Source: Halodesulfovibrio aestuarii DSM 17919 = ATCC 29578 (lineage in GTDB: Bacteria > Desulfobacterota > Desulfovibrionia > Desulfovibrionales > Desulfovibrionaceae). From it: a DNA stretch of 64,000 bases. Numbering within the stretch: position 1 is the first letter of the stretch; every line of letters begins with the position of its first letter. This document shows, piece by piece, positions 3,891 to 11,739 of the stretch. The notes below the pieces were generated by a model. That model searched no databases. It saw nothing but the letters and a program-made list of their open reading frames with translations, and was not told the DNA's origin. The stretch spans positions 248,001-312,000 of the forward strand of contig NZ_ARQF01000020.1 in the NCBI RefSeq assembly GCF_000384815.1. The letters are read 5' to 3'. The translations under genes were made by a program, and so were the position numbers.

Positions 3891-3921
3891 AAAAAACCCC
3901 GTAGAGTGTGCACCACGGGGT
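3891..3921 (-). terminator. Rho-independent terminator behind the exporter operon
   Basis: Stem ACCCCGT (3896-3902) pairs with ACGGGGT (3915-3921). Read on the minus strand it is followed by six T residues. It lies about 30 bp past the stop of the 88-residue gene and should end the exporter operon. Confidence 0.85.
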
Positions 3922-3952
3922 CTCGGACAATAAACAAGCAAGTAAAACGACG

Positions 3953-4219
3953 CTACTTTGCGACCACATTCATTGAGCGGGGCATATGCTCAAATGTCGA
4001 GCGGGCACCTAGGTCGGCTTCTCCGCAAACTTCTATATCAGTATAATAAAATTCACCTGTTTCAATCCCGCTATCGTCAATGAACTTTGCCATTGTGGTA
4101 AAATCCTCAGAGCTTGCGGTAATAGCAGGACAAATCACGTACGTGAACGACCAAAAGATTGCGAGTCCGGCTACAAACTTGGTCCATCTATAAGCTGCGC
4201 TTGTCTTATCCATTGTCAT
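3953..4219 (-). CDS. Small membrane protein encoded with YeiH-type exporter
   Basis: 88-residue protein of unknown function. One transmembrane segment is visible at about residues 13-33 (FVAGLAIFWSFTYVICPAI), followed by a polar C-terminal half that would lie outside the membrane. It has a Shine-Dalgarno-like AAGGAA before the ATG. It lies about 100 bp downstream of the exporter gene on the same strand, ahead of a terminator, so it is probably co-transcribed and may be an accessory subunit. That role is inferred from position only. Confidence 0.65.
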   Translation of the reverse strand: MTMDKTSAAYRWTKFVAGLAIFWSFTYVICPAITASSEDFTTMAKFIDDSGIETGEFYYTDIEVCGEADLGARSTFEHMPRSMNVVAK

Positions 4220-8412: not shown

Positions 8413-9762
8413 ATGCGACGCAATATTTTAGTAGTAGATAAAGATAACGGTTCCCTTGCAGCTCTTCCAGAACTCTTGAAAGCTGCAGGCTATGAGGTGA
8501 TTCATGTCCATACTCATCATGAAACACGTTCGACTCTTACAAAAGAACATTTTGCAGTAGTCATTGCCGGGCTTGAAGAACACCACGCACAAAAGCAAAG
8601 CCTGCTTAAATCCATCAAAGCAAACACACCCGACACAGAAGTCATTCTAGTCTCACGTGCCGCACGTGTTGATGCTGCCGTACGCGCCATGCAAATGGGC
8701 GCATTCCATTTTTTATCACTGCCTGAAAACCCTGCCGATCTTCTTGTTATTGTTGATAAGGCAATGGAAAAATGCTTCCTGCAATCAGAAGTTAACGAAC
8801 TTCGTCAAATCTTGAAAAAACAGCAGACAATGCCGACACTCATCGGCCAGAGTGCGCCCATGCAGGAGCTTAAAAAAGAGATCGCCCGCATTGCTCCGCT
8901 CGACTGCACCGTTCTCATTCAAGGAGAAACAGGTACAGGTAAAGAGATGGTCGCCAAAATGATCCATAAGCTCAGTTCACGGGCGGACAAACGCTTTTAT
9001 GCCATAAACGCCGGTGTATTCAGCCCAGAGCTGCTTGCCAATGAACTTTTTGGACACGAAAAAGGTGCCTTCACAGGCGCACAGTCCACCAAAGAAGGGA
9101 TTTTTGAAGCTGCTAACAACGGCACCCTTCTTCTCGATGAAATCGGTGAAATGCCCGTAAATATGCAGGTACAGCTATTACGTGTACTTCAGGAACGCAC
9201 TATTACACGTGTTGGTGGGACATCTGACATCTCCATTGATGTACGCGTCATAGCCGCAACACACCGTAATCTGGAAAAATTAGTCGAAAAAAATCAGTTC
9301 AGACAAGATCTCTTCTATCGTCTCAATGTATTCACTCTGCGTTTACCTGCTCTGCGCGAGCGCCCTGACGATATCCCCTTGTTCTGTAACTTCTTTATTG
9401 AAAAGTACTGCAAAACATTTGGCAAAAAAGTCACAGGACTTTCTGAAAATGCCATGCTCGCTTTAATGCGCCATTCTTACCCGGGCAACGTTCGCGAACT
9501 GGAAAACATAATCGAACGTGCCGTTGTGCTCTGCGACAGCGGAACTATTCATCTAGCCCACCTTCCACAAGAATTTTCTATAGGCACAAAACGAACACGC
9601 AAGACTCACACAAACAACACGCACAGAACTTTGGCCGATGTTGAACAGGAACACATTACACAAGTCCTTCACAGTGTTGATGGCAACAAGGCAAGTGCTG
9701 CCAAAATATTAGGAATTGATCGTGCTACACTTTGGCGGAAATTAAAAAAATATTCTTTGTAA
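8413..9762 (+). CDS. Sigma-54 activator with degenerate receiver domain
   Basis: 449-residue NtrC-type activator. The receiver-like N-terminus (about residues 1-120) keeps the fold signature NILVVDKDN but has VVIAGLEEH where the phosphoacceptor Asp should be, and FLSLPEN where the conserved KP lysine should be. It is therefore unlikely to be phosphorylated. The AAA+ domain is intact, with Walker [16 protein letters not shown], Walker B LLLDEIGE and the R-finger region. It ends with a Fis-type helix-turn-helix ([20 protein letters not shown]). No kinase gene is adjacent. Directly downstream are three palindromes, a sigma-54-like promoter and a candidate small RNA, which are the obvious targets. 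No clear Shine-Dalgarno precedes the ATG, so the start is moderately certain. Confidence 0.92.
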
Positions 9763-9790
9763 AATCAGTCTATTACTCCGCGCCTCTAAT

Positions 9791-9805
9791 GTTGCACTTT
9801 GCAAC
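9791..9805. promoter_or_regulatory. Candidate activator site 1 (GTTGC-N5-GCAAC)
   Basis: Perfect palindrome GTTGCA-CTT-TGCAAC, the first of three with the same core upstream of the sigma-54-like promoter at 9970-9985. Its centre is about 185 bp from the -12 element, a normal distance for sigma-54 activator sites. Confidence 0.6.
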
Positions 9806-9807
9806 GC

Positions 9808-9822
9808 GTTGCATTACGCAAC
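9808..9822. promoter_or_regulatory. Candidate activator site 2 (GTTGC-N5-GCAAC)
   Basis: Palindrome GTTGC-ATTAC-GCAAC, centred 17 bp from site 1. Paired sites about two helical turns apart would suit cooperative binding of an NtrC-type dimer. Confidence 0.6.
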
Positions 9823-9872
9823 ACCCTCGCTGCATTCCCCTAAATGACAGTGGTTTTCAATCCAAAATTCTT

Positions 9873-9897
9873 AAAGCGTTGCACATTGCAACGCTTT
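9873..9897. promoter_or_regulatory. Candidate activator site 3, possibly also the activator gene's terminator
   Basis: A 25-bp perfect inverted repeat with 11-bp arms around CAT contains the same core, GTTGCA-CAT-TGCAAC. A T-rich stretch follows, so it could also be a rho-independent terminator for the activator gene. The shared core with sites 1 and 2 favours protein binding; both roles are possible. Confidence 0.6.
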
Positions 9898-9969
9898 TAT
9901 TTTTTATACATTTTGTAACTAAAGAATTTTATTCAATAGATTTCAACATATTATGCATACAATCAATTT

Positions 9970-9985
9970 TGGCACGACATTTGGA
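9970..9985 (+). promoter_or_regulatory. Sigma-54-type (-24/-12) promoter
   Basis: TGGCAC at 9970-9975 and TTTGGA at 9980-9985 give the GG-N10-GG spacing expected for -24/-12. The only deviation from consensus is GG instead of GC at -12. It lies downstream of three matching palindromes and a sigma-54 activator gene, and points into the candidate small RNA. Confidence 0.6.
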
Positions 9986-9995
9986 TATAGTAAAT

Positions 9996-10208
9996 TGAAC
10001 AGTAACTAGGCTTATTTGGACCTCCTCCAATTTGTCTATCCAGTAACGTAAATCGTCGGCAACCGAGTTACGTTGATCCACACATAGTGCTCCTCTCACT
10101 TAGTTTCAGTGTCGCACGGAGGACCCACCTCCTCTTCCACCACCATCCATCATTCGGCACTGGAACAGAAAAGGCTTCATGACGTCAGCGCGTCATGAAG
10201 CCTTTTTT
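9996..10208 (+). ncRNA. Candidate sigma-54-dependent small RNA with anti-Shine-Dalgarno loops
   Basis: About 210 nt without a credible ORF, running from 12 nt past the -12 element to a strong terminator. Four hairpins can be drawn. TTGGA(10016)-CCTCC-TCCAA shows the loop CCTCC. The second pairs AACGTAA (10045-10051) with TTACGTT (10068-10074) and has an inner TCGG/CCGA. AGTG-CTCCTCT-CACT (10086-10100) shows another C/U-rich loop. GGAGG-ACCCA-CCTCC spans 10118-10132. Exposed CCUCC or CUCCU loops are complementary to ribosome-binding sites and are a known device of trans-acting small RNAs (RsaE and alpha-proteobacterial 'cuckoo' type families). Function and ends are inferred; no expression data. 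Confidence 0.62.
10169..10208 (+). terminator. Strong rho-independent terminator of the small RNA
   Basis: AAGGCTTCATGACG pairs with CGTCATGAAGCCTT around a 6-nt loop, followed by a T-run. No protein gene ends just upstream, so it supports a non-coding transcript. Confidence 0.93.
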
Positions 10209-10311: not shown

Positions 10312-11739
10312 ATGTTTTCTGCTGCAACATACGCTGAGCGAAGAAAAATCTTATGCACCCGTCTCACAGAGCGCGGTGAAAAAGGTCTGCTATTATTTCC
10401 GGGACATTCTGCATCCCCCATGAATTACACAAATAATACATATCCATTCCGTCAAGACTCCTCTTTTCTCTATTTTTTCGGACATGATCATGAGGGATTA
10501 ACAGGCGTCATCGACCTTGATGCCGGAGAATCGTGGTATTTTGATCAAGGCTTTTCCATGGATGACATCATATGGTCTGGAGCACTGGCTACGCCTGAAG
10601 AACTCGCAGCCCGTTGCGGAGCAGAAAGATACGGTGCAGAAAAAACACTTACCCACATGGTGACCGAAGCAAAAAAATCGCAGCGCCCTATACATATTTT
10701 ACCTGTCTACCGTGCCGAAACCCGTATGCGCCTTGTTCAACTGTTAAACTGCGGCATTATGGAAGCAGACAAATTTGTCTCCACTCCTCTCATCGAAGAA
10801 GTTGTCAAACTACGTTCCGTAAAATCCATTGAAGAAGTTATGGAGATCGAGCAGGCATTGGAAACATCCTATGCCATGTACGCCAATGCACTCACCGCAA
10901 CACGTCCGGGTGCTTCAGAGCGCCAACTTGCTTCCGTTCTCCATTCAACATTAGCGTTGGCAGGCTCCGCTCCGTCATTTACCCCTATATGCACTGGACG
11001 TGGTCAAATTTTACACAACCACGAATATAGCCACATGCTCCATTCAGGAGACCTACTGCTCATCGATTCAGGTGCTGAATCTGAAAATCACTACGCATCA
11101 GACATCACAAGGACATTCCCTGTAGCCGGCACATTCACCGGGCAACAGCGAGATGTATACTCCATAGTCCTTGCCGCGCAGGAAGCAGCTATTTCTCAAT
11201 GTGCACCAGACATTCCTTTCATTGACTGCCATATGACCGCCGCAACCACTATTGCTTCCGGCTTGCGAGATCTGGGCATCCTTAAAGGGTCTGTTGAAAG
11301 CATTGTAGCGGCCGGCGCTCATGCGCTCTTCTTCCCGCATGGTCTCGGACATATGCTCGGACTGGATGTACATGATATGGAAGGTCTTGGTGAAGACTTC
11401 GTGGGCTACGACAGCACCATTACCCGTTCTGAACAATTTGGATTACGCGGCCTGCGCCTTGCACGCAAACTTCAACAAGGTTTTGTCGTCACCATTGAAC
11501 CGGGTTGTTATTTTATTCCGGCTCTTATGGAACAATGGGAGGCCGAAGGCACTTGCAAAGAATTCATCAACTTCGATACAGCAAAACAATTCAGTGAATT
11601 TGGCGGCATCCGGATTGAAGATGATATTTATATCACCAGTGACGGGCATAGAGTTCTTGGACAACAAATTCCTAAAACAGTCGCTGGAATCGAAGGCCGT
11701 ATGCACGCTTGTTCACAACGCATGTTCCAAGGCAGATAA
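10312..11739 (+). CDS. pepP: Xaa-Pro aminopeptidase (M24B, aminopeptidase P family)
   Basis: Cytoplasmic metallopeptidase that removes N-terminal residues preceding proline. The N-terminal AMP_N domain covers about residues 1-140 and the pita-bread catalytic domain about 180-455. Dinuclear metal ligands are recognisable: two Asp in DSGAESENHYASDITRTFP (about 250-265), His in HGLGHMLGLDVHD (about 343), Glu in TIEPGCYF (about 395) and Glu in GGIRIEDDI (about 430). Length (475) is slightly above the E. coli enzyme. GGAGG lies 4 nt before the ATG. Monocistronic by position. Confidence 0.92.
   Translation: MFSAATYAERRKILCTRLTERGEKGLLLFPGHSASPMNYTNNTYPFRQDSSFLYFFGHDHEGLTGVIDLDAGESWYFDQGFSMDDIIWSGALATPEELAARCGAERYGAEKTLTHMVTEAKKSQRPIHILPVYRAETRMRLVQLLNCGIMEADKFVSTPLIEEVVKLRSVKSIEEVMEIEQALETSYAMYANALTATRPGASERQLASVLHSTLALAGSAPSFTPICTGRGQILHNHEYSHMLHSGDLLLIDSGAESENHYASDITRTFPVAGTFTGQQRDVYSIVLAAQEAAISQCAPDIPFIDCHMTAATTIASGLRDLGILKGSVESIVAAGAHALFFPHGLGHMLGLDVHDMEGLGEDFVGYDSTITRSEQFGLRGLRLARKLQQGFVVTIEPGCYFIPALMEQWEAEGTCKEFINFDTAKQFSEFGGIRIEDDIYITSDGHRVLGQQIPKTVAGIEGRMHACSQRMFQGR

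Follow-up and report, generated by a model that had tools for sequence, protein, structure and literature searches.

A predicted sigma-54-controlled non-coding RNA with anti-Shine-Dalgarno stretches beside a sigma-54 activator gene in Halodesulfovibrio

Does the stretch between a sigma-54 activator gene (8413–9762) and an aminopeptidase P-type gene (10312–11739) of Halodesulfovibrio aestuarii DSM 17919 hold a small-RNA gene, and what might its product do? We analyzed this locus in a window of 64,000 nucleotides (the whole stretch of DNA studied; all positions refer to it) and in related genomes. A preliminary description had proposed a sigma-54-controlled regulatory RNA carrying three C-rich hairpins complementary to Shine-Dalgarno (SD) sequences. 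The three palindromes, the adjoining activator gene and the strongly conserved loop described below did not feature in it. The elements upstream of the predicted RNA are as follows.

8413–9762, + strand: gene for a sigma-54 enhancer-binding protein with Sigma54_activat (AAA+, GAFTGA), HTH_8 (Fis-type HTH) and receiver-like domains
9791–9805, no strand assigned: enhancer palindrome UAS1, GTTGCACTTTGCAAC, from a pattern scan; putative binding site of the adjoining activator
9808–9822, no strand assigned: enhancer palindrome UAS2, 17 bp from UAS1
9878–9892, no strand assigned: enhancer palindrome UAS3, 70 bp from UAS2, with a T-run after it
9970–9985, + strand: predicted sigma-54 promoter (-24/-12), TGGCACGACATTTGGA, from a pattern match; same promoter type at the locus in 10/10 genomes of the genus

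The window had one match to TGGCAC-N5-TTG[GC][AT], namely TGGCACGACATTTGGA, with 0.28 expected and at least one match in 25 of 100 shuffles. Single matches being this common in shuffled sequence, the predicted promoter is unremarkable alone, and is convincing because of the three adjoining palindromes and its conservation. A sigma-70-like match overlapping it (9/12) was at chance level (1.7 such matches expected). For three palindromes of the form GTTGCA-N3-[TC]GCAAC 5' of the promoter the expectation was 0.02, and none of 100 shuffles of the window contained three. Their starts were located 174–180, 157–163 and 88–93 bases before TGGCAC in all ten genus genomes, with spacings of 17 bp and then 68–70 bp. 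The strict tandem palindrome was found exactly once in each of these genomes; outside the genus it turned up in G036 alone among 338 genomes of the order. A scan of contigs with named records, which may omit records near the window's own genome, found the tandem only in Halodesulfovibrio (H. spirochaetisodalis JC271 and isolates N3 and SZUA-473).

Single exact palindromes were restricted to the RNA locus in G000 (the genome of the window, with all three exact copies there), G002, G005, G006 and G007. Further copies away from the locus were found in G001 and G009 (one each), G004 (two) and G008 (four). The exact pattern had no match anywhere in G003, and the reversed-pattern control gave 0–3 matches per genome. 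Because the exact palindrome is absent elsewhere in G000, the predicted RNA is probably the main or only target of the adjoining activator. The activator has the GAFTGA loop, which reads GAYTGA in four genomes (group B, see below). In an alignment with 17 relatives, read by eye, the phosphate-accepting Asp of its receiver was replaced in all ten genus members (Gly in group A, Ala in group B), and all ten also lacked the conserved receiver Lys; several relatives from other genera retained both residues. With acceptor Asp and Lys gone, the activator is unlikely to be switched on by phosphorylation.

The UAS3 region with its T-run (9873–9907) was scored as an intrinsic terminator by a simple terminator scan. 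Given this score and the T-run that comes after the palindrome, UAS3 may double as an activator-binding site and as the end of the activator mRNA. The scan picked this region instead of 10167–10208, which was absent from its list, probably because the stem there extends into the T-run. The predicted RNA has the following parts.

9996–10208, + strand: predicted small RNA of ~213 nt, its 5' end placed by the distance to the -24 element
10007–10038, + strand: hairpin H1, apical loop CCUCC at 10021–10025; the UCC after the loop belongs to the stem
10044–10075, + strand: hairpin H2, loop UCGGCAAC at 10056–10063, closed by a G-C pair
10086–10100, + strand: weak hairpin or single strand holding the second anti-SD stretch, CUCCUCU, at 10090–10096
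10103–10166, + strand: long closing helix H4 with a C-rich region inside; its internal GGAGG (10118–10122) pairs with the third anti-SD stretch, CCUCC (10128–10132)
10167–10208, + strand: intrinsic terminator, 19-bp stem plus U-run

As the preliminary description had stated, the promoter is followed by a gene-free stretch, with no ORF of at least 60 aa inside 9996–10208, and by a strong terminator ~210 nt on. An 88-aa mechanical ORF (9732–9998) overlaps the end of the activator gene and the promoter. In the folding, proposed earlier as a check, the whole predicted RNA folded better than 200/200 shuffles (z -6.1). Without the terminator the z value was -2.3, with 5/200 shuffles equally good, and it was -1.1 when the last helix was also cut short. 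Terminator-free folds of two relatives gave z values of -4.6 (G005) and -2.5 (G001). The window had no Rfam match at gathering score; weak matches, all below it, were taken as chance.

A DNA-level search of 59 relatives detected the RNA in six, all within the genus. Since it missed four genus members, absence elsewhere by this search says little, and presence outside the genus was therefore judged by the palindrome pattern and by a promoter-plus-loop pattern. The latter, the promoter with CGGCAACC from the H2 loop at the right distance, had one match in each of the ten genus genomes and was present in four of the 337 others; its reversed control matched five genomes. Promoter and RNA were present beside the closest activator homolog in all ten genus genomes, four of which were added by reading downstream of the homolog.

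The RNAs formed two groups: group A (G000, G001, G002, G007, G008 and G009), with 210–214 nt and 95% mean column identity, and group B (G003–G006), with 263–265 nt and 93% mean column identity. A whole-RNA MAFFT alignment of the ten misaligned the groups; they were aligned separately, and H1–H2 jointly. Most stems differ between the groups, and the order of the hairpins is kept: H1, whose loop contains CCUCC; H2, whose G-C-closed loop reads [UA]CGGCAAC; the CU-rich anti-SD stretch; the long helix, which encloses a region rich in C and A; and the terminator hairpin with its U-run, present in all ten RNAs. Group B has an additional hairpin 3' of H2, and H1 of G001 folds differently in the prediction.

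In the H1–H2 alignment of all ten sequences, ACCUCCU and CGGCAACC were the sole long invariant runs. The right arm of H2 was shifted by about three columns between the groups, and for this reason pairing across groups was read ungapped outward from the loop. In most sequences, six of the first 11 stem positions (2, 3, 7, 8, 10 and 11) had standard pairs that differed on both sides between the groups. Position 4 was mismatched in several sequences, and G009, with a one-base insertion in H2, was out of register beyond it. Inside group B, double-sided changes affected 5 of 79 predicted pairs (four sequences), compared to 0 of 61 inside group A. Compensatory changes, which the preliminary description had named as evidence to look for in relatives, are thus present between the groups and inside group B.

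The sequence comparisons speak against a decaying remnant, with a live promoter and a functionless RNA. The invariant runs span both groups, and the group A RNAs are 95% alike, against a region between palindromes and promoter that, as read by eye, varies in much of its sequence. Two observations would suit a remnant, namely target searches without a standout and related promoters seemingly driving other products elsewhere (both below); we hold this explanation to be highly improbable. The comparisons point instead to a real, conserved RNA gene under sigma-54 control, which we hold to be very probable.

The same-strand peptidase gene, whose start codon is ~100 nt from the terminator, raises the question of whether the RNA is a leader or attenuator of that gene (10312–11739). 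Such a role is very unlikely, as a strong terminator closes the RNA in 10/10 genomes and two other predicted ORFs separate it from the peptidase gene in G005 and G006. In G003 the peptidase gene is on a different contig from the RNA.

Three anti-SD clusters were counted in G000 (10021–10028, 10090–10096 and 10128–10132), with 0.6 expected (shuffle P 0.007). All ten RNAs had three CCTCC/CTCCT clusters outside the terminator, compared to shuffle means of 0.55–0.82 (P 0.006–0.026), in a modest test with non-independent P values and a motif chosen post hoc. From pairing probabilities, computed for seven of the ten RNAs, the CCUCC loop of H1 is predicted to be open in G000 (~1.0) and the second stretch, in its weak hairpin, mostly unpaired (0.67–0.97). 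The third stretch was mostly paired in all seven; in G000 its partner is the internal GGAGG at 10118–10122, making it a stem strand and not a loop. The earlier claim of three C-rich anti-SD hairpins holds for the H1 loop and the second stretch, so that two of three copies are exposed in G000, and fails for the third. Exposed CCUCC/CUCCU stretches were conserved in relatives. In group B the first was open in 4/4 RNAs and the second mostly open in 3/4 (partly paired in G004), and in G001 the first was half in a stem and the second partly paired. The second stretch, CUCCUCU, was invariant in all six group A sequences. We take these stretches to resemble the anti-SD tail of 16S rRNA as generally described; a search of this assembly for GGATCACCTCCTTT gave no match.

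The invariance of CGGCAACC equals that of ACCUCCU, and its unpaired probability was 0.53–1.0 in G000, 0.56–1.0 in G001 and no lower than 0.87 in the other five RNAs computed. This would fit an RNA that works chiefly through a protein or RNA partner at the H2 loop, as a sponge or scaffold, with the CCUCC stretches being secondary. We consider this unlikely, as it does not account for the presence of three anti-SD clusters in every one of the RNAs. For a CsrA-type sponge many GGA loops would be needed; GGA was found by eye to be rare and mostly in predicted stems, and this candidate was set aside.

With respect to partners and targets, the Hfq family PF17209 was detected in 0/59 relatives of the order (positive control 5/14 genomes), in a search that could overlook a very divergent Hfq. 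Wobble-aware complements of the second anti-SD stretch with up to two mismatches were found 6 times on the RNA gene and 50 times elsewhere in the ten genomes, with 28 matches for the reversed control. No start region stood out when the 56 predicted in the window were ranked crudely by duplex, and the ranking mis-called the activator start. Neither search yielded a usable target.

We also considered whether the transcript encodes a small protein, as corresponding loci in other genera seem to do; there, seven genomes have a FAQAN-like ORF of 33–53 aa near a related activator. Among ORFs of at least 12 codons with start and stop inside the RNA, group A has a 29-aa GTG frame closed in 5/6 members; a second frame, 31 aa long except in G008 (44 aa), is present in 4/6. 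The 29-aa frame is without an SD-like sequence and, in G007, without a stop in the RNA, and the SD of the second frame is unconvincing. No frame is common to groups A and B, which agrees with the non-coding nature proposed in the preliminary description and leaves very little probability for a small-protein mRNA. Mechanical ORFs of 160 and 182 aa, running into the RNA from 5' of the promoter in G005 and G006, were outside the frame comparison. A predicted sigma-54-driven non-coding RNA with anti-SD elements is thereby supported by its conservation in 10/10 genomes, by two invariant runs on differing stems and by the lack of an ORF common to the groups.

The related activators of other genera were followed at 46–52% identity, with orthology judged by best match and position. 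In G036 a 38-aa ORF is preceded by the three palindromes, spaced as in the genus (17 and 69 bp). In G019, G278, G039 and G023, a sigma-54 promoter and partial or degenerate palindromes precede an ORF of 33–37 aa with FAQAN or FAQAG. Similar ORFs with FAEAN, on the opposite strand, were spotted by eye in G053 and G092; the small-ORF screen covered the activator's strand for 1.4 kb downstream, and convergent ORFs such as these were outside its reach. The FAQAN-like proteins of 33–53 aa (L040, L041, L042, L043, L046, L080 and L082) are encoded behind sigma-54-type promoters; five of them were scanned against Pfam, with no match above cut-off. Weak profile matches to these proteins were seen in the genus, a few kb from a paralogous activator. 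In G119 and for one activator of G098 (L081 and L083), a sigma-54-type promoter is followed by a longer ORF starting MSIISISRDS, which we take to be cytidylate-kinase-like.

No comparable unit was found on the activator strand within 0.9–1.4 kb in G224, G229, G099, G100, G101, G025, G057 and for the second G098 activator, nor near the distant paralogs of G005 and G006 or in G032, where the contig ends shortly after. The predicted Halodesulfovibrio RNA was found at none of the examined loci outside the genus. In G025, two palindromes of the same type were seen 21 bp apart (L047, 6034–6069), ~2 kb from the activator homolog. In G019 and G278 (L043 ~3893–4215, and L082), the RNA 3' of the small-ORF stop was alike in 100/122 columns, compared to 78/108 for the ORF. 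This post-ORF RNA (120 nt) had raw folding energies, without shuffle control, of -47.8 and -41.1 kcal/mol and no Rfam match at gathering score. The unit may be a dual-function mRNA/sRNA.

Part of the preliminary description was that no such layout was known from a delta-proteobacterium. This part did not stand, in view of the published cases of Pxr/nla19 in Myxococcus and of DVU0653 and DVU0679 in D. vulgaris; the sigma-54-controlled regulatory RNA itself is backed by the comparisons above. Kazakov et al. 2015 list four ncRNAs as targets of sigma-54 regulation in D. vulgaris, of which two lie 3' of their activator genes, DVU0653 and DVU0679 (PMC4641369), and Rajeev et al. 2011 place ncRNAs downstream of the same genes (PMC3333781). 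These ncRNAs (DVU0653; DVU0679, Dv_sRNA2) are, by their description, like the predicted RNA in that the activator gene adjoins an ncRNA listed as a target (PMC4641369, PMC3333781). Four genomes presumed to be D. vulgaris-like or distant gave a best activator match of 45% identity. Reading by eye downstream of the activators in G024 and G111, guessed to be D. vulgaris-like, we found no ncRNA. In the library searched, only PMC4641369 and PMC3333781 mention Dv_sRNA2, DVU0679 or DVU0653, and no paper mentions both Halodesulfovibrio and sRNA; little published work on small RNAs of sulfate reducers was found.

Pxr of Myxococcus xanthus is located downstream of the sigma-54 response-regulator gene nla19, apparently with a sigma-54 promoter (PMC5568312). 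It resembles the predicted RNA as an sRNA with stem-loops 3' of a sigma-54 activator gene, and differs in its 108-nt gene and known developmental role; the likeness is one of description (PMC5568312).

Among sigma-54-dependent regulatory RNAs, Qrr and CrcZ act with or on Hfq. The predicted RNA differs from both, as Hfq was not found in the 59 relatives and no Rfam match was obtained in the window at gathering score, from a library that presumably included the Qrr and CrcZ models.

A precedent for the proposed mode of action is NfeR1, an Hfq-independent RNA that represses at translation starts; each of three hairpins carries one of its redundant anti-SD motifs, in an unpaired region (PMC10746234). 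NfeR1/alpha-r14 (RF02344, Alphaproteobacteria) and the predicted RNA have in common several unpaired anti-SD motifs on stems differing in sequence; NfeR1 is independent of Hfq (PMC10746234), and Hfq was not found in the relatives here. The predicted RNA scored 14.5 bits (E 1.6) against RF02344, below the gathering score of 58.8. Where NfeR1 has three identical CCUCCUCCC motifs in unpaired regions, the predicted RNA combines a single CCUCC loop with one CUCCUCU, a further copy that is mostly sequestered, and the CGGCAACC loop. Control differs as well: LsrB activates NfeR1 and NtrC represses it. NfeR1-style feedback onto the own activator through anti-SD pairing is unlikely, because no SD-like stretch was found at the activator's start.

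Our preferred reading, by analogy with NfeR1 and in our view rather probable, is an Hfq-independent RNA that would block translation starts. The activator would bind the three palindromes 5' of the sigma-54 promoter and switch on the ~213-nt non-coding RNA. The CCUCC loop of H1 and the second stretch (CUCCUC) would pair with SD sequences in several mRNAs and keep ribosomes from loading, with no need for Hfq; anti-SD repression is our best guess at the mechanism, and we lean toward it. The third CCUCC would be kept in reserve by the internal GGAGG, and the invariant CGGCAACC of H2 may add another recognition element, serving as a target seed or as a site for a protein.

The predicted RNA is probably a new family, kin to known kinds. 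New are this family and the observation that related activators in other genera appear to drive small-protein or kinase-like mRNAs, in one genome (G036) with an unchanged enhancer geometry. Of most interest is that one enhancer architecture seems to serve different products. A tentative and on the whole doubtful extension is that one activator/enhancer module, its palindromes and their spacing unchanged, swapped its product, a FAQAN-type small protein in another family and, in Halodesulfovibrio, an RNA mimicking the 16S anti-SD tail; the latter would broadly slow translation initiation in a lineage that lacks Hfq, and its activator would no longer depend on phosphorylation. With invariant loops carried on stems that have been exchanged, the activator and its predicted RNA would be a good system in which to test anti-SD regulation without Hfq, and the same enhancer layout before a small-protein gene in another family offers a way to ask how the output of a regulator shifts from protein to RNA.
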